DNA of 36,528 nucleotides from a virus: positions 1 through 36,528 of IMG/VR virus record IMGVR_UViG_3300031758_000233; one strand, 5' to 3'. Every line of letters starts with the position of its first letter. The first letter of the stretch is position 1. Under the pieces are notes generated by a model. That model saw only the letters and a program-made list of their open reading frames with translations. It had not been told where the DNA came from and made no database searches. This document shows positions 6,339-15,198 of this stretch, piece after piece. The position numbers and the translations under genes were made by a program.

Positions 6339-6698
6339 ATGTCTCGGCGTCACGTCTTAAAAAAATACCAAGTATTAGACAATGCAGACTCTACAACAAA
6401 CCCGGTTAGTAAAGAAACTGATGTTTCTCAATTGGATTTTGTTACTTATCAACTAAGTGTTGAAGCTGGTGTTACTGCTACGCTGTTAGTTTTATTTTCT
6501 AATGATGAGCGCTTTGATCCTGCAAACGCAAGCGAATTAAACTTTGGAACTCCTGTCGTTTTAGATGGTGCAACAAATGTAGACTATGTTTTACATATTC
6601 AAAACCAAGGTTTTAAATGGCTATATTTAAACGTTATTGATACAGGCGGAAACGGCAACGTAAATGCTTGGGTTACTGGAAATGTGAGGGGTGCATAA
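6339..6698 (+). CDS. Small beta-rich virion protein (unknown family)
   Basis: The 119-residue protein is predicted from its pattern to be a beta-sandwich. It has alternating hydrophobic residues, few charges, and the late segment GFKWLYLNVIDTGGNGNVNAW. That ending resembles the small protein at 14857 (YKWVRIVYTRSSGSG), suggesting a shared fold. AAGGAG lies 6 bases before the ATG after a 55-base spacer, so it begins a new translational unit: the fibre region. The stop overlaps the next start as TAATG. A structural role, such as a fibre base or head/tail decoration, is inferred from position. Confidence 0.5.
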   Translation: MSRRHVLKKYQVLDNADSTTNPVSKETDVSQLDFVTYQLSVEAGVTATLLVLFSNDERFDPANASELNFGTPVVLDGATNVDYVLHIQNQGFKWLYLNVIDTGGNGNVNAWVTGNVRGA

Positions 6699-8185
6699 TG
6701 AAGGTTTATTTATATCCTCCTGTTGAGATAAGTCAGGGACCAACTCAATTTTTACTAGATGGGGTTCCAACAGATGTTTCAAAAGATACTATTACCCCGG
6801 CAAATACTATTGCATTACCTGTTGAAGAAATAGGGCATTTAGATAACTTAGAAGATAATGTTGCTCTTGGTGACGGTAGCGGTAACCTAATCGGAACGGT
6901 TACACTTCCAAGTTCTGCTATTGCTCTTTCTGTTCAAGACGATGAATCACTTGCAGTATTATCCAACTTAGACGGAAAAATTTTACCTAATGGAACAATT
7001 GACTCTGGAAATACAACTCAAACCCTGCTGGGTTCTAACGGGGTTTTTACTGGTGATGCCATTAATATCACAGAATATGCGGCAATCAACGTAAACGTTG
7101 TATCTAACGTTCCTTCGGCTACAAACGGCGTAAAAGTAGAGTTTTCTGGTGACGGTGTAAACTGGGTTCATTCTCACTCTACTACTTATTCAGGTGGGGC
7201 AGGGGTAGGATACGTCTTTAACTGCGAGTGGCAGTTTGCTCGTGTTGTTTATACAAACGGCGCTACAGCTCAAGGCTCTTTTCTTTTACAGACAATATTA
7301 AAAGTAAATCCTGTAAAACAGTCTCTTTATACAATTTCTCAAGCTGTAAATGGTAATATGTTTGCAGAGCTTGGGAAGAACGTAATTATCGGAGAGACTA
7401 CAGGCGGAGGAGGCGGATACGTTGCAGTTAAAGTAAACCCTTCCGGCGCCTTGACTACAGAATCAACCGTTACTGGTACTGTTTCAGTATCTAACTTTCC
7501 GGCTACTCAACCAGTTAGCGGCTCTGTTTCAGTTTCAAATTTTCCAGCTTCATACCCTGTAACAGGAACATTTTGGCAAGCTACTCAACCCGTTTCGGGA
7601 ACTGTAGACATAGGAAATTTTCCGGCAACTCAAGCTATTAGTGCGGTTTCCTTACCTCTTCCAAGCGGTGCTTCAACACTAGCAGAACAACAAACTCAAA
7701 CAACTGCTTTGGGGTCATTAACTGAAACGGCTCCGGCTACTGATACAGCTTCAAGCGGTTTAAATGGTCGCTTACAGCGTATCGCTCAAAGATTAACTTC
7801 ATTGATTGACTTGTTTCCTACTTCAATAGGAACAAAAACTTCTGCAGCTTCTTTATCGGTTGTTTTAGCTTCTGATCAAGCTGCAATAGGTGTAACACCT
7901 CAAACGTCTAGCGGAACAATTACCCAAATTCAAAAATCTGTTGGCTTAACTGCCGTAAGGGCTACGGTATCGGGGTCAGCTCCGGGAGCTGCTAGAAAGA
8001 AGCTAATGATTAAACCTTCAAAAAATAACACTGGTTCTATCTATTTTGGTGCTTCAACAGTAACAACTGCATCAGGTATGGAAATCATCGGACCAGATAG
8101 ACTTGAGTTTGAACTAGATGCTTCTGATTATTACTTAATCAGTGATACAGCCGCTCAGGTTGTTGAAATTGTAGAGGTAGTTTAA
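6698..8185 (+). CDS. Tail fibre-like protein with NFPATQPVSG repeats
   Basis: The ATG at 6698 is preferred over the more upstream 6668 because it overlaps the previous stop as TAATG and has GAGGGG 7 bases upstream; this gives 495 residues. About residues 112-205 look like a beta-sandwich. Residues about 258-315 hold imperfect repeats of the type (V)SNFPATQPVSG: SVSNFPATQPVSG, SVSNFPASYPVTG, FWQATQPVSG and DIGNFPATQ. Such repeats are common in phage fibre-like virion proteins as a thin shaft. The C-terminal about 100 residues form another beta-rich head with SIYFGASTV. It is likely an extended fibre or spike connecting module. The function is inferred; the repeats are directly visible. Confidence 0.6.
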   Translation: MKVYLYPPVEISQGPTQFLLDGVPTDVSKDTITPANTIALPVEEIGHLDNLEDNVALGDGSGNLIGTVTLPSSAIALSVQDDESLAVLSNLDGKILPNGTIDSGNTTQTLLGSNGVFTGDAINITEYAAINVNVVSNVPSATNGVKVEFSGDGVNWVHSHSTTYSGGAGVGYVFNCEWQFARVVYTNGATAQGSFLLQTILKVNPVKQSLYTISQAVNGNMFAELGKNVIIGETTGGGGGYVAVKVNPSGALTTESTVTGTVSVSNFPATQPVSGSVSVSNFPASYPVTGTFWQATQPVSGTVDIGNFPATQAISAVSLPLPSGASTLAEQQTQTTALGSLTETAPATDTASSGLNGRLQRIAQRLTSLIDLFPTSIGTKTSAASLSVVLASDQAAIGVTPQTSSGTITQIQKSVGLTAVRATVSGSAPGAARKKLMIKPSKNNTGSIYFGASTVTTASGMEIIGPDRLEFELDASDYYLISDTAAQVVEIVEVV

Positions 8186-10440
8186 TGAAAACATTCGCTA
8201 TTTTATTCACATTATTTTATTTTTTAAACGCTCTCGCTGTTGCTCCTTACGGATTTAAAGGGCAGCAACAATCTCAAACTCTCTATTCTAACGTTCTTCA
8301 AGCACAAAATAATCTAGTAACTAATATGGGTGGGATTAACGCTCTATTAGAAACTGGAAACAAAAACATTTTAATTAATCCAAGTTTTGAACATGCTACT
8401 TTTTCAACAGGTTGGACAAACAGCGCAGGAACATTCACTCAAGACACTGTAGTCGAGATTGATGGGCTTAAAGCTGCCAAGCTAGTTCTATCATCTCAAA
8501 CTATGTCACTCACTCAAAGCTCTACACTTTACGCTTCTCAGTTTGCTGATGGGGTTCAAGGTCTTGCAAGCGTTAGAGTGAAATCTGATGTTGCTTTAAA
8601 AGTATGCTCAATTCAGGCTGGGGTTGTTTCAACTACAAACTGCGTTGACGTTCAAGCAAATAATAAGTGGGGTCTTTATAAGGTTCCTATGATTTTAGGT
8701 GCTACATCAAACGGAATCTCGATCGCTTCAAGTGGAGCGGTGTCAGGCACTGTTTACATTGACGACGCTTTCGTTGGTGCTGTTGATTTAAAGGTTGATA
8801 TTAATAATATAGGAAACTGGACTAATGGCATTTGTTCAGCCACATGGACAACAAATACATCAGTTTCATGCAAATACAGGCAAGTTGGAACCGACTTAGA
8901 AGTTCAATATTTATTGACTTTATCTGGAGCTCCAAATTCTACTGGATTATATTTGAATATGCCTTCTGGTTTTACAATAGATACAACTAAAATAATGGCA
9001 ACAACAGGAAATCCGTCTTTATTTGGAAGAGGAACAGCAAGGGATCTTTCAACTAATAAGTATTATGATGTTAGTGTTAATATTGCAAGTTCTTCAGTTA
9101 TAGGATTTTTTTATACTATAAACGAAGTAACACCACCAACTGTTGGAAGCTCGTCTGGTCAACTTGCTGAAGTATTGCCAAATGCCCCTGTAGTTTGGGC
9201 GAGTGGTGATACATTTACAGCAAGCATAAAAATACCGGTTACTCAATTTTCTAACGCTGGCTCTGTCTACTCATCAACTAACGCAGATACAGATTGGGCT
9301 AGTTGTGGTCATACAACATCATCATTTACTGGATTTGGAACAGTAACGAACATAAATACACATTGCAAAAGACAGGGTGGGGATTTATTAGTTAAGGGTT
9401 ATTTTACTTCGGGAACTCCAACAGCAGTTGAAGCTAGAGTTTCTTTACCTATTTGGAATGGTGTTCAATTAGTAAGTGCAGGATCTTCTGTTATACCAGC
9501 CACTCAACTTGCAGGTGACGCTGTATATTCTACTCAAAACTCAACATATTTTAGACATTCAGTATTAATTGACCCTTCCGTAAGTTATTTCAATTTTGGC
9601 GTTCAATCGTCTACTTTAACAGCCATGGTTAAAGCGCTAGGAACTCAAGCTGGCTCATTAAACAACGTACTATCGATTACCGCTCGCATCCCAATCGAAG
9701 GCTGGCAGCAATCTAACATAATCATAGGTCAATTCAATGGGCTAGAATCATGCGCAACCACTCTGGACTGTACTGATACCTTTAGTGCTAAAATTTCTAG
9801 TGCCGGAGTGATAAGCGAAGAAAATGTAGATTGGTTAAGCACTTGTTCGTCTGGTGGAGCTGGGTTTAAAGTTTGTACACTTAAAACCTCTCTTTTTACT
9901 GTTGCGCCTAACTGCCAAATGACAAGCGGTGTGGGATCTTCTGCTAACTTTTTAACAAGAATTAGCGCATCTTCGGCTTCTTCAGTTACATTCTTAACTA
10001 TGAATACAAATGCAACTCCTGTTGACGGTCCATTTGAAGTTATCTGCCAAAAACAAGGTGTTGATTATATTGGAAAAACAGCCAAAGCCGTTGCTAGCGA
10101 TCAGAGTCTAAGAACACCAGGTGTGACAAATGCTGTTATAAACTCATGCAAAATTAATAACAATGGAACTGCAACACTAGATTCATCTTCTGGTCTTTGC
10201 TCATCTTGGATTTCTTCAGTTTCAAGAACAAGCTTAGGAAGCGTAACAATTAACTTTTTAGCAAACACTTTTTTAAATCCTCCTGTTTGCACTCTGTCGA
10301 CTCATACAGTTGGAAACGCAATACCACAAAGAATACAATCATCCACAGCTTCATCTGTTATTGCTGTTTTTATTGTTCCAAATACTGCTGCGTTAGTTGA
10401 TGTGGATTTTAACATTACATGCCACGGGGTCAAGCCATGA
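8185..10440 (+). CDS. Exported, cysteine-rich tail fibre/adhesin-like protein
   Basis: The 751-residue protein begins with a convincing signal peptide (residues 1-18, positively charged start, hydrophobic core, ALA before V19). A carbohydrate-binding-like beta-sandwich follows at about 50-205, with NPSFEHATFSTGWTN as in CBM4/9-type domains. Next come two related modules, each with CK-R--G-DL-V and an ending like ASIKIPV or TARIPIEGW. Two related C-terminal cysteine modules end in VICQKQG and ITCHGVK. I count 16 cysteines, an even number, which suggests disulphides and so passage through the periplasm. This is odd for a phage fibre, which normally assembles in the cytoplasm. Its gene lies inside the fibre block. 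It could be a surface-displayed adhesin or a virion part matured outside the cytoplasm. Confidence 0.6.
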   Translation: MKTFAILFTLFYFLNALAVAPYGFKGQQQSQTLYSNVLQAQNNLVTNMGGINALLETGNKNILINPSFEHATFSTGWTNSAGTFTQDTVVEIDGLKAAKLVLSSQTMSLTQSSTLYASQFADGVQGLASVRVKSDVALKVCSIQAGVVSTTNCVDVQANNKWGLYKVPMILGATSNGISIASSGAVSGTVYIDDAFVGAVDLKVDINNIGNWTNGICSATWTTNTSVSCKYRQVGTDLEVQYLLTLSGAPNSTGLYLNMPSGFTIDTTKIMATTGNPSLFGRGTARDLSTNKYYDVSVNIASSSVIGFFYTINEVTPPTVGSSSGQLAEVLPNAPVVWASGDTFTASIKIPVTQFSNAGSVYSSTNADTDWASCGHTTSSFTGFGTVTNINTHCKRQGGDLLVKGYFTSGTPTAVEARVSLPIWNGVQLVSAGSSVIPATQLAGDAVYSTQNSTYFRHSVLIDPSVSYFNFGVQSSTLTAMVKALGTQAGSLNNVLSITARIPIEGWQQSNIIIGQFNGLESCATTLDCTDTFSAKISSAGVISEENVDWLSTCSSGGAGFKVCTLKTSLFTVAPNCQMTSGVGSSANFLTRISASSASSVTFLTMNTNATPVDGPFEVICQKQGVDYIGKTAKAVASDQSLRTPGVTNAVINSCKINNNGTATLDSSSGLCSSWISSVSRTSLGSVTINFLANTFLNPPVCTLSTHTVGNAIPQRIQSSTASSVIAVFIVPNTAALVDVDFNITCHGVKP

Positions 10441-10853
10441 AAAAACTATTAGTAAAAATTAAAGTCATAGATATTCCTTATTCTCCAGCAGTTGAGGCTA
10501 TTCCTGCCACTGATACAGAGCCGGAAATACCAGCAATACCAGAGCAGCCTGAAGTCTCTCATGAAGAGATTATAGCCCAGACTCAAGGTCTAGACGACGA
10601 GCTCGCTCAGTGGCTTGCTCAATATTCTCCAGTAGGACCTGAAGGCTATTGGGTTGAATATATCGATCTAGAGCAAGACTATGACTATTTATTAGCTAAA
10701 TGCCACGCTCTTAGAATCGGGGAGTATCCAAGCCTAGGAGATCAAGCAGACGCAGCTTTTAAGGCTCGTCAAGGTGATAACTCTCAGCAGTTAGCTATCG
10801 ACACAATGATTGAAGCAGTAAAAGCTAAATACCCTAAGCCGGAGAAGCCATAA
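10437..10853 (+). CDS. Putative tail fibre assembly/accessory protein
   Basis: ATG 10437 overlaps the previous TGA (ATGA) and is preferred to 10419, giving 138 residues. After a Pro/Glu-rich linker (about 14-42) comes a helical C-terminal half. It ends with EYPSLGDQADAAFKA followed by AVKAKYPKP, a sequence type found at the end of many phage fibre-associated or chaperone-like proteins. It is acidic and soluble with no signal peptide. Its place directly after a large fibre-like gene fits an assembly factor or a capping subunit. The similarity is to a widespread but poorly defined family, so the functional call is tentative. Confidence 0.45.
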   Translation: MKKLLVKIKVIDIPYSPAVEAIPATDTEPEIPAIPEQPEVSHEEIIAQTQGLDDELAQWLAQYSPVGPEGYWVEYIDLEQDYDYLLAKCHALRIGEYPSLGDQADAAFKARQGDNSQQLAIDTMIEAVKAKYPKPEKP

Positions 10854-11269
10854 TGCTAAAGTTAGCAATTCTTTTTCGGGCTATGCAGCTATTTGCTCAC
10901 TCTGCGCATAATCTTTGTCATGGTTCTACATTCCACGAAGATCATAGTTTTTTTGGTGATGTCTACGGCAAAGCTGAAGGCTATTATGATTCAATAATTG
11001 AAAGGCTTATCGGTCTAGGTTATGAATCCCATTTGGATCTTTCACAGATTATTAAAGAAGTATCTACAAGCTTAGAAATGGCTCCTTCTGTTGGAGCTTC
11101 AAATAATGACTACTATTCATTTCTGTTGACTCAATGCGAAGATGCTTGTGAGTATTGCAACGAATTTTGCAAATCTGGTCAATTAACTGAAGGCACTAAA
11201 CAACTCTTAGGCGGAATTGCTGATGAGCTTGAAGTTCTTAAATACAAGATACTAAGAAGGTTAAAATGA
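10853..11269 (+). CDS. Dps/ferritin-like protein
   Basis: The 138-residue helical protein carries a Dps-type ferroxidase signature. H19, H31, D46 and E50 have exactly the spacing of E. coli Dps His51, His63, Asp78 and Glu82, inside the typical context (GSTFHEDH, then DSIIERLIGLG). The position equivalent to Asp67 is Gly35, with Asp36 next to it. Dps proteins form 12-subunit cages that oxidise and store iron and often bind DNA. At 138 residues it lacks the long basic N-terminal tail used for DNA binding in E. coli. It also has a C-terminal cluster CEDACEYCNEFC. The gene overlaps both neighbours within the fibre block. Whether it is a virion part or a cytoplasmic protectant is unknown. Confidence 0.75.
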   Translation: MLKLAILFRAMQLFAHSAHNLCHGSTFHEDHSFFGDVYGKAEGYYDSIIERLIGLGYESHLDLSQIIKEVSTSLEMAPSVGASNNDYYSFLLTQCEDACEYCNEFCKSGQLTEGTKQLLGGIADELEVLKYKILRRLK

Positions 11270-11433
11270 ACAACGATCAAGAATGGCGTTCTCATCTTTT
11301 CTCAGAAATCAAAGAACTTAGAAAAGACGTATCGGAAGTTAAAAACGAGATGCTTAGTCTAAAAATTAAAGTAGCCGTTTTTTCTTCATTTATTGGATCG
11401 GTTGCTTCATACTTTATTAATAAGATTTTTTAA
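11266..11433 (+). CDS. XhlA-like small membrane protein
   Basis: This 55-residue protein starts at an ATG overlapping the previous stop (ATGA). Residues 5-34 form a charged coiled-coil (SEIKELRKDVSEVKNEM), and residues about 36-52 a single C-terminal hydrophobic helix. This order matches haemolysin XhlA-type phage proteins, which accompany holins in some phages. It lies about 4.7 kb before the murein peptidase, away from the main lysis block, so an accessory membrane role in the fibre or virion region is also possible. Recognition is by architecture only. Confidence 0.5.
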   Translation: MNNDQEWRSHLFSEIKELRKDVSEVKNEMLSLKIKVAVFSSFIGSVASYFINKIF

Positions 11434-12347: not shown

Positions 12348-13550
12348 ATGGCTAAGCAATTACAAAAAAAGTTTATTGGTGACAATCAAGTAGATGGGTC
12401 AAAGATCCTGCTTGAAAACAACCAATCAATCAAGATTAAAGATTCAACAGGTACAGAAGTTGACTTAGTAAAACTAGGTGCATCGAATGAAGTTTTAGTT
12501 AAGGGTCAAGAAGTTGCGATCAAATCAGAGTTGACTCAAGAAATTGCAGACCGCATAAGCGGCGATAGCTCTACACTATCTTCAGCAAATTCTTATGCAG
12601 ACGCCCAAGACGTTATTTATCTAGGTCAAGCACAAGACTATACAGACACCGAAATCAGTGGGCTTCAATCTTTTCTACAAGGAGAGATTTCAAGTGGTGA
12701 CGCTGCAACATTAGTTTCAGCTAATGCCTATACCGATCAAGAAGTTCTAGCTGAAGAAACAGCAAGAATTGCAGCAGATGCAAGCTTACAATCTCAAATT
12801 GACGCTATTACAGGCGGGGGTTCTGGTTCATTGGCTGCTGTTCAATCAGAGCTAGATTCTACTCAAGCTGGTGCAGGGTTAGGGGTTGACGGGTCTTATA
12901 CGGCTCCGGTTGGGTCAAACTATTTAGGGTCTGCTACTTCTTTAAAAAATGCAGATACTCTACTAGATTCTCAAATTAAAATCGTTGCCGACGGTCTAGC
13001 TAATGTTATTTCAAACGTAGATCCGGGAGCTTTAGACTCATTGACTGAAATCGTTACAGCTTTCCAAGCTGCTGACTCATCTCTCAACGGAGCTATTACT
13101 TCTCTTTCTACCAGCCTTGCAGCAGACATTGATGCCGAAGAATCTGCTCGTATTGCTGCCGACTCTGCTTTACAAGGTGAAATCGATGCGGAAGAATTAG
13201 CAAGAGCTGCAGCCGATACAACACTTCAAAACAATATCAACTCGGAAGCTTCAGCTCGTGCTGCTGCTGATACAGCTTTAGACGGTCGAGTATCTGTTCT
13301 TGAATCTGTTGTTTGGTTCAAAGAGAAGTTTTCTATCTCTAACGGTCAAACTTCAATAACTCTTTCTCATACTCCTGAGTCTAATTCTATGTCTGCTTTT
13401 GTAGACAGATTAGCCATTCACCAAGGAGCAGCAGAGGACTATACTATCAGTGGTGTGACAATGACGTTTCTTAACGATTTAGTGTCTCCGGGTCAATCTC
13501 AAATTGGTAACGGCGATACTGTTTACGTAAAGTATCAGTACAAAGTCTAA
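12348..13550 (+). CDS. Trimeric coiled-coil tail fibre protein
   Basis: The 400-residue protein has AAGGAG at proper spacing. Most of it is heptad-like repeat sequence typical of trimeric fibre shafts: SSANSYADAQD, LVSANAYTDQE, TARIAADASLQSQID, SARIAADSALQGEID, LARAAADTTLQNNIN and SARAAADTALDGRV. A small beta-rich head follows from about residue 320 (FSISNGQTSITLSHTPESNSM to GDTVYVKYQYKV). A similar terminal domain is found on many phage fibres. It is followed by a strong terminator, so it closes one transcription unit. Likely the receptor-binding or connecting fibre. Confidence 0.7.
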   Translation: MAKQLQKKFIGDNQVDGSKILLENNQSIKIKDSTGTEVDLVKLGASNEVLVKGQEVAIKSELTQEIADRISGDSSTLSSANSYADAQDVIYLGQAQDYTDTEISGLQSFLQGEISSGDAATLVSANAYTDQEVLAEETARIAADASLQSQIDAITGGGSGSLAAVQSELDSTQAGAGLGVDGSYTAPVGSNYLGSATSLKNADTLLDSQIKIVADGLANVISNVDPGALDSLTEIVTAFQAADSSLNGAITSLSTSLAADIDAEESARIAADSALQGEIDAEELARAAADTTLQNNINSEASARAAADTALDGRVSVLESVVWFKEKFSISNGQTSITLSHTPESNSMSAFVDRLAIHQGAAEDYTISGVTMTFLNDLVSPGQSQIGNGDTVYVKYQYKV

Positions 13551-14856: not shown

Positions 14857-15198
14857 ATGAAATTTGCTAATGAAAAAATTATTGTTGCTGCCGATATGTC
14901 GGCAAGCTTTTCCTCTGATCCTATTTTACTTGATCAGATTTATGGCTTTAGCTTCCAAGCTGTTTTTACGGGTTCTCCAAACGGAACTTTCAAACTTCAA
15001 TGCTCTAATGATGACGTAAAACTCCCGATAGAAGTATCTCAATGGTCTGATGTTGGTTCAACTTCCCAAGCCATTTCTGCGGCTGGTGATTTGTTCTACA
15101 ACATAGATGCAGCTCACTATAAATGGGTTAGAATTGTTTACACTAGATCAAGTGGCTCGGGCTCTTGTGATGTTGTTTATTTTGCAAAAGGGGCTTAA
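14857..15198 (+). CDS. Small beta-sandwich virion protein
   Basis: The 113-residue protein has alternating strands and the characteristic end AAGDLFYNIDAAHYKWVRIVYTRSS-type motif (W-V-R then YT-SGSGS). I associate this with small jelly-roll proteins next to phage fibres. It resembles in length and ending the protein at 6339. AGGGAA precedes the ATG. It sits between two beta-helix genes and may be an adaptor between spike and fibre, or a decoration. The function is not established. Confidence 0.5.
   Translation: MKFANEKIIVAADMSASFSSDPILLDQIYGFSFQAVFTGSPNGTFKLQCSNDDVKLPIEVSQWSDVGSTSQAISAAGDLFYNIDAAHYKWVRIVYTRSSGSGSCDVVYFAKGA

Follow-up and report, generated by a model that had tools for sequence, protein, structure and literature searches.

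The virus record analysed here (36,528 bases; the whole stretch is called the window) encodes a Dps-type mini-ferritin of 138 amino acids. The branch of the Dps family in which it falls is nearly virus-only; there, the four-ligand core of the iron site is invariant and the fifth canonical ligand is lost. The reading that we favour, with moderate confidence, is that this is an accessory (moron-like) cargo gene whose product protects the infected cell or the phage DNA and is not a component of the particle. Neither a phage-borne Dps nor a protective role for it is a new idea; the virus branch and its residue signature are the new part.

Gene and genomic setting

The open reading frame described in the initial annotation was confirmed at positions 10853-11269 of the window (+ strand), together with its overlap with both neighbours, which amounts to 1 nt shared with the upstream gene (TAATG) and 4 nt shared with the downstream gene (ATGA). 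The surrounding features are as follows.

10419..10853, + strand: upstream neighbour, 144 aa, left flank of the slot, comes after a fibre-like gene (PHROG 2687/9114, unknown function)
10853..11269, + strand: Dps-type mini-ferritin gene, 138 aa (ORF, PHROG 3636, AlphaFold2 fold, Foldseek)
11266..11433, + strand: downstream neighbour, 55 aa, hydrophobic C-terminal segment, right flank of the slot (homologues in sister phages)
13593: tail fibre-like matches (PHROG/Pfam match)
16130: M15 peptidase, probable lysis gene, downstream of the Dps-type gene (PHROG/Pfam match)
26742: terminase (PHROG/Pfam match)
28317: portal/connector (PHROG/Pfam match)
31038: major head protein (PHROG/Pfam match)
33936: internal virion-like protein (PHROG/Pfam match)

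No PHROG match was found for the genes at 6668-10440, which are called fibre-like from their position and from a sequence cluster that they have in common with the gene at 12348. Since the Dps-type gene is placed between fibre-like and lysis genes, late expression would be expected; a promoter and terminator scan performed no better than on shuffled sequence. Among the window proteins scanned, no oxidative-stress gene other than the Dps-type gene was recognised, a point against the protective reading. The fibre-like protein at 8185-10440 carries a signal-peptide-like leader (a hydrophobic N-terminus); such a leader, unusual in a tail fibre, recurs on the fibre-like homologues of two sister phages (L114 and L115). 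In addition, a gene for a GNAT acetyltransferase domain lies at 943-1284, within the structural module.

Predicted fold and profile matches

AlphaFold2 predicted the single chain as a four-helix bundle whose B and C helices are linked through a short extra helix, as in Dps; a fold other than such a bundle, which would have counted against the initial annotation, was not obtained. The mean pLDDT was 90.8 with an alignment of 4 sequences and 96.8 (pTM 0.90) with 27 sequences, the latter model having helices at residues 2-21, 27-54, 63-73, 84-107, and 113-137. In a Foldseek search of the PDB with this second model, all of the 50 best of 436 rows at E 10 were Dps-family structures with TM scores by query length of 0.71-0.86, at modest E-values (best 8.9e-4, and 1.3e-2 for the first model). 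The top VIA-align match was the Dps of B. brevis (Z 18.5, 1.8 A, 134 residues), closely followed by a mini-bacterioferritin (Z 18.3) and a bacterioferritin (Z 17.0), too close for the fold score by itself to choose between these families. DpsL and bacterioferritins are also four-helix bundles, and DpsL forms a dodecamer according to the available text of PMC11150526, but their intrasubunit site is built with ExxH motifs. The window protein contains no ExxH motif and no His in helix D, which argues against a bacterioferritin-type site; a site of the bacterioferritin or DpsL type was therefore rejected on sequence, although by VIA-align Z the folds cannot be told apart. Together, the short B-C helix of the model and the ligand pattern point to Dps.

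Profile searches gave a graded picture. The window protein matches PHROG 3636 with an E-value of 4.8e-8 and the Pfam Ferritin family with 0.0029 (18 bits, under the gathering score of 24.5), and it scores below all three NCBIfam Dps cut-offs; its relative L033 reaches 40 bits, above the Pfam Ferritin cut-off. All 27 branch members searched match PHROG 3636 at E 0.01 or better, and 26 of the 27 match Pfam Ferritin at E 0.1 or better. Among PDB chains, the best single-sequence matches are Nostoc Dps4, Thermosynechococcus DpsA, and Thermoleptolyngbya Dps1, and a 4-sequence profile prefers HP-NAP chains (1.7e-8). Five of the 27 members also match Pfam DUF5856 weakly (best E 0.00048); this family of unknown function, for which a search of open-licence PMC found no mention, may from these matches be Dps-related. 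Parts of two proteins of uncultured phages in BFVD, A0A6J7XDU5 (annotated as prohead protease) and A0A6J5LAB8 (annotated as ParB/sulfiredoxin), match the Dps fold and are possible fusions.

A nearly virus-only branch of Dps

The family search for phage members proposed in the initial annotation yielded relatives in 52 other viral contigs. In total the branch comprises 54 loci (51 loci from one search, L003, L037, and the window) with 45 distinct proteins. When 84,980 species genomes were scanned with one short peptide pattern, which can miss relatives, a single locus came up, L037, on a Bacteroidetes MAG contig, and the neighbouring genes of L037 fall in clusters common to viral loci. Of 296 genomes of the same phylum, 70 had any profile match, the best other match scoring 45.3 bits compared to 154 for the L037 contig. 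This gap between the best cellular protein and the viral-type contig disfavours a recent capture from a host, as judged from these 296 genomes of a single phylum. When a tree was built together with 14 cellular and three known phage Dps proteins, the 45 branch proteins fell on one side (support 99/95, and in 98% of 200 bootstrap trees); S-EIV1, Iacchus, CP220, and one cellular protein sit on long branches, which makes the place of S-EIV1 next to the other outside proteins unsure. Purifying selection is apparent from dN/dS ratios of 0.05-0.12 in 7 of 12 branch pairs with finite dS; dS was saturated in 5 of the 12, including both pairs with the window protein.

In INPHARED, tblastn at E 0.01 found nothing for four members of the branch, and a search with a fifth member at E up to 10 gave weak partial matches in 32 records. 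A corresponding search with the S-EIV1 protein at E 0.001 returned only itself. Among the matches listed in a literature search of open-licence PMC, no paper describes this viral Dps branch with its signature.

The iron site

Residues 1..138 of the model correspond to residues 33..170 of Nostoc Dps4 in an end-to-end alignment, i.e. with an offset of 32. Conservation was counted in the 45 distinct branch proteins and compared with 14 cellular Dps (the best-scoring Bacteroidota proteins with loci) and three other phage Dps. The codons concerned are listed below.

10907..10909, + strand: H19 (His51 equivalent), core ferroxidase ligand in helix A (45/45)
10940..10945, + strand: D30 (branch-invariant Asp) and H31 (His63 equivalent, core ligand) (both 45/45)
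10955..10960, + strand: G35 at position 67, where the acid is missing, and D36 at position 68 (residue counts)
10988..11002, + strand: D46 to E50 (Asp78 and Glu82 equivalents, core ligands) in helix B (D46 and E50 45/45)
11243..11248, + strand: Y131 and K132 (positions 163 and 164) (residue counts against cellular Dps)

The claim that H19, H31, D46, and E50 follow the spacing of the Dps site holds: in the structural alignment to Nostoc Dps4 they coincide with His51, His63, Asp78, and Glu82, and each is kept in all 45 distinct relatives. Loss of these ligands in close relatives, which would have counted against a Dps-type site, was not seen. This also applies to the 16 of 45 proteins that lie outside the DH-containing search patterns, all of which (16/16) still have the DH pair and the four ligands. 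The fifth canonical position is different. It had been described as an Asp67 shifted by one residue, for which a better description is that the acid at position 67 is lost (G37 A6 S1 R1, acidic in 0/45, against Glu in 13/14 cellular Dps), with a variable position 68 that is acidic in 32/45. In canonical Dps, one subunit supplies the two His and the Asp or Glu at 67, and the partner subunit supplies Asp78 and Glu82; of these five ligands, four are kept throughout the branch and the one at 67 is absent throughout. D36 as a family-wide replacement ligand was rejected because position 68 is acidic only in those 32 proteins and because its counterpart in Dps4 is reported as non-coordinating in the available text of PMC6675082.

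Around the core, position 52 is N36 H7 L1 I1 and never Trp (cellular Dps: Trp in 14/14), position 163 is Y44 F1 (cellular: Trp in 14/14), and position 164 is K37 Q6 L2, that is, Lys or Gln in 43/45 (cellular: Met in 14/14). Directly before the second His, position 62 (D30) is Asp in 45/45 branch proteins and in 0/14 cellular Dps; among the three other phage Dps only that of Lactobacillus phage Iacchus has it. H16 (43/45) and R9 (44/45) are likewise typical of the branch (1/14 and 0/14, respectively, in cellular Dps). The C-terminal CxxxCxxCxxxC cluster to which the initial annotation drew attention is not a family feature: C95 is kept in 3/45, C102 in 7/45, and C106 in 12/45. With so little conservation, the idea of a metal site built from these Cys was dropped, though C99 is Cys in 33/45.

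DNA-binding tails of Dps are Lys/Arg-rich N- or C-terminal extensions past the bundle. The window protein has a predicted helix A starting at residue 2 and a helix D ending at residue 137 of 138, leaving no tail, and its pI is 5.3; E. coli-like DNA binding is therefore not expected.

Comparison with known Dps proteins

With canonical Dps (E. coli Dps, HP-NAP, Listeria Dps) the branch shares the fold with its BC helix, the ligands His51, His63, Asp78, and Glu82, and the helix D glutamate at position 159 (44/45). It differs by the missing acid at 67, Asn or His (43/45) for Trp52, Tyr for Trp163, Lys or Gln for Met164, the invariant Asp62, and, in the window protein, the lack of a terminal tail. 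The proteins with a His-type ferroxidase centre (Nostoc Dps4, Thermosynechococcus DpsA, and, by sequence, Thermoleptolyngbya Dps1) resemble the branch in their non-acidic residue at 67, acidic residue at 68, and polar residue at 164. According to the accessible part of PMC6675082, this type is defined by His at 78 together with His at 164; in Nostoc Dps4, His164 from a third subunit binds metal where Met or Phe is usual, and metal is bound neither by Asn67 nor by the adjacent residue (Asp68 in that text, Glu in the PDB chain sequence). In contrast, the branch has Asp at 78 in 45/45, where Dps4 has His, and Lys (37), Gln (6), or Leu (2) instead of His at 164. By its residues, the viral branch is a Dps lineage that keeps the four-ligand core, has lost the fifth canonical ligand, and carries Lys or Gln where His-type Dps place the His of a third subunit. 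We tentatively suggest, as a possibility short of an even chance, that it represents a third, virus-only class of Dps ferroxidase centre, with a His-His-Asp-Glu core, loss of the position-67 acid and of the nearby tryptophans, a Lys or Gln contributed to the site by a third subunit, and, just ahead of the second His, an Asp that never varies.

That a phage encodes a Dps, as initially proposed, is borne out for the window and has precedents: a ferritin-like gene is described in Lactobacillus phages in the available text of PMC6669764, that of PMC8008677 reports DPS enzymes for the gut 'Gratiaviridae' and for 36 further phage genomes, and annotated Dps or ferritin-like genes are present in Campylobacter phages and in Synechococcus phage S-EIV1. 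The Dps of Iacchus, of Campylobacter phage CP220, and of S-EIV1 fall outside the branch in the tree, on long branches, and keep Trp163 and Met164; the 'Gratiaviridae' proteins share with the branch that they are phage-borne. In S-EIV1 (L057, 11833-13853), the Dps gene shares one base with a gene annotated as sulfate adenylyltransferase. PMC7354516, as far as its available text goes, concerns induction of a host dps and not a phage gene.

Presence and absence of the gene in related phages

Ten related records were searched, most of them short fragments, and the Dps-type gene was found in one, a contig already in the family. The slot was read across in two sister phage contigs only, G322 (34.6 kb) and G319 (34.5 kb), whose major capsid proteins are 87% and 88% identical to that of the window. 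Absence of the gene says little for G316, G320, and G321, with a fibre-region marker within 3 kb of the contig end, and for G317, G318, G323, and G324, with no such marker. The fibre region of G322 and G319 is partly syntenic with the window, with one extra gene (321 aa) and no homologue of the gene at 14857. Both contigs have homologues of the upstream flank (about 34% identity over 84-85 aa) and of the downstream flank (67% over 55 aa), directly adjacent and without the Dps-type gene, with a 1-nt overlap in one and a 2-nt gap in the other. The gene is thus present or absent in the slot as a single unit, an unpolarised pattern that may reflect gain or loss. On the contig of L005 (L001, 1999-2226), a gene for a further hydrophobic protein of 75 aa lies between the fibre-associated and Dps genes, which suggests that the slot takes in other small genes too.

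Across the branch, genomic contexts vary. A gene of the fibre-like cluster c0 lies within four genes in 16 of the 54 loci and a terminase or portal gene in 5 of the 54, with both nearby in four (L020, L052, L053, and L055). Some relatives have terminase on one side and portal on the other and run on the opposite strand, and further ones adjoin helicase and glycosyltransferase, exonuclease and polymerase, or DnaB and Sak4-like genes, or a transposition-like gene; this annotation derives from 20 neighbouring proteins scanned, several of which had no match. At least one neighbouring ORF is on the opposite strand in 23/54 loci, as counted with a simple ORF caller that may include false ORFs. Judging from these neighbours, the branch is spread over packaging, replication, or fibre regions in unrelated phage gene contexts.

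Proposed role and alternative explanations

In the favoured reading, the mini-ferritin would be made in the host cytoplasm late in infection and its subunits would assemble into a hollow dodecamer, with H19, H31, D46, and E50 at each two-fold interface binding Fe(II). H2O2 or O2 would oxidise the bound iron, which would then be stored in ferric form inside the cage. With the Fenton reactants removed, phage DNA and proteins would suffer less damage in the time before lysis. The missing tail and the pI of 5.3 make such chemical protection likelier than DNA compaction. As the second shell of the branch differs from that of cellular Dps, oxidant preference or metal handling may differ as well, and with the position-67 acid lost in 45/45 and Trp52 and Met164 replaced, catalysis could be weak or different.

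These same replacements, with Lys or Gln at 164 in 43/45 and the invariant D30 and near-invariant H16 and R9, would also suit a site that binds metal without efficient iron oxidation and acts by another route, e.g. by forming mixed cages together with the host's Dps, by starving a host defence of metal, or by compacting DNA. We consider such an altered function rather unlikely, given the invariance of the four core ligands and the fact that Nostoc Dps4, with Asn67 and so equally without an acid there, uses O2 to oxidise Fe(II) according to the available text of PMC6675082. Carriage of iron for the infected cell or the progeny (of the Ferrojan type) instead of protection has a very slight probability: a mini-ferritin would store iron, and iron in phage tails has been hypothesised earlier, but none of the scanned window proteins was recognised as serving iron uptake, there is no sign of packaging, and the accessory pattern speaks against a role in the virion.

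The initial annotation was supported in its Dps-like assignment by fold, profile matches, and ligand conservation; its suggestions of DNA protection from oxidative damage or of iron handling are plausible, and its suggestion of a virion decoration is made unlikely. A Dps cage or subunit as tail decoration or head cargo would be consistent with the tight operon between fibre-like genes, with the contigs L005-L012, L038, and L043, in which the gene stays within four genes of cluster c0, and with the Dps-like part of the annotated prohead protease A0A6J7XDU5. It is nevertheless unlikely, and was downgraded because of the empty slot: G322 and G319, so similar in their major capsid protein, carry both flanking genes of the fibre region but lack the Dps-type gene. 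Other relatives also reside between terminase and portal or beside helicases and exonucleases, outside fibre regions. LC-MS/MS of Lactobacillus phage Dionysus, as given in the main text of PMC6669764, identified 4 virion-associated proteins with no Dps among them, a result with poor coverage, with 12 other detected proteins placed in the supplement, and from a different Dps lineage.

Implications

Phage Dps genes have been reported one phage group at a time in the literature examined. The accessory mini-ferritin described here belongs to a coherent, nearly virus-only branch with fixed unusual residues at the iron site, and related phages exist with and without the gene. This makes two questions directly testable now, namely whether phages gain from controlling host iron and peroxide, and whether a mini-ferritin can work without the fifth canonical ligand. 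If the branch indeed represents a third class of ferroxidase centre, the oxidant that it uses or the metal that it selects would be adjusted to conditions in the infected cell.
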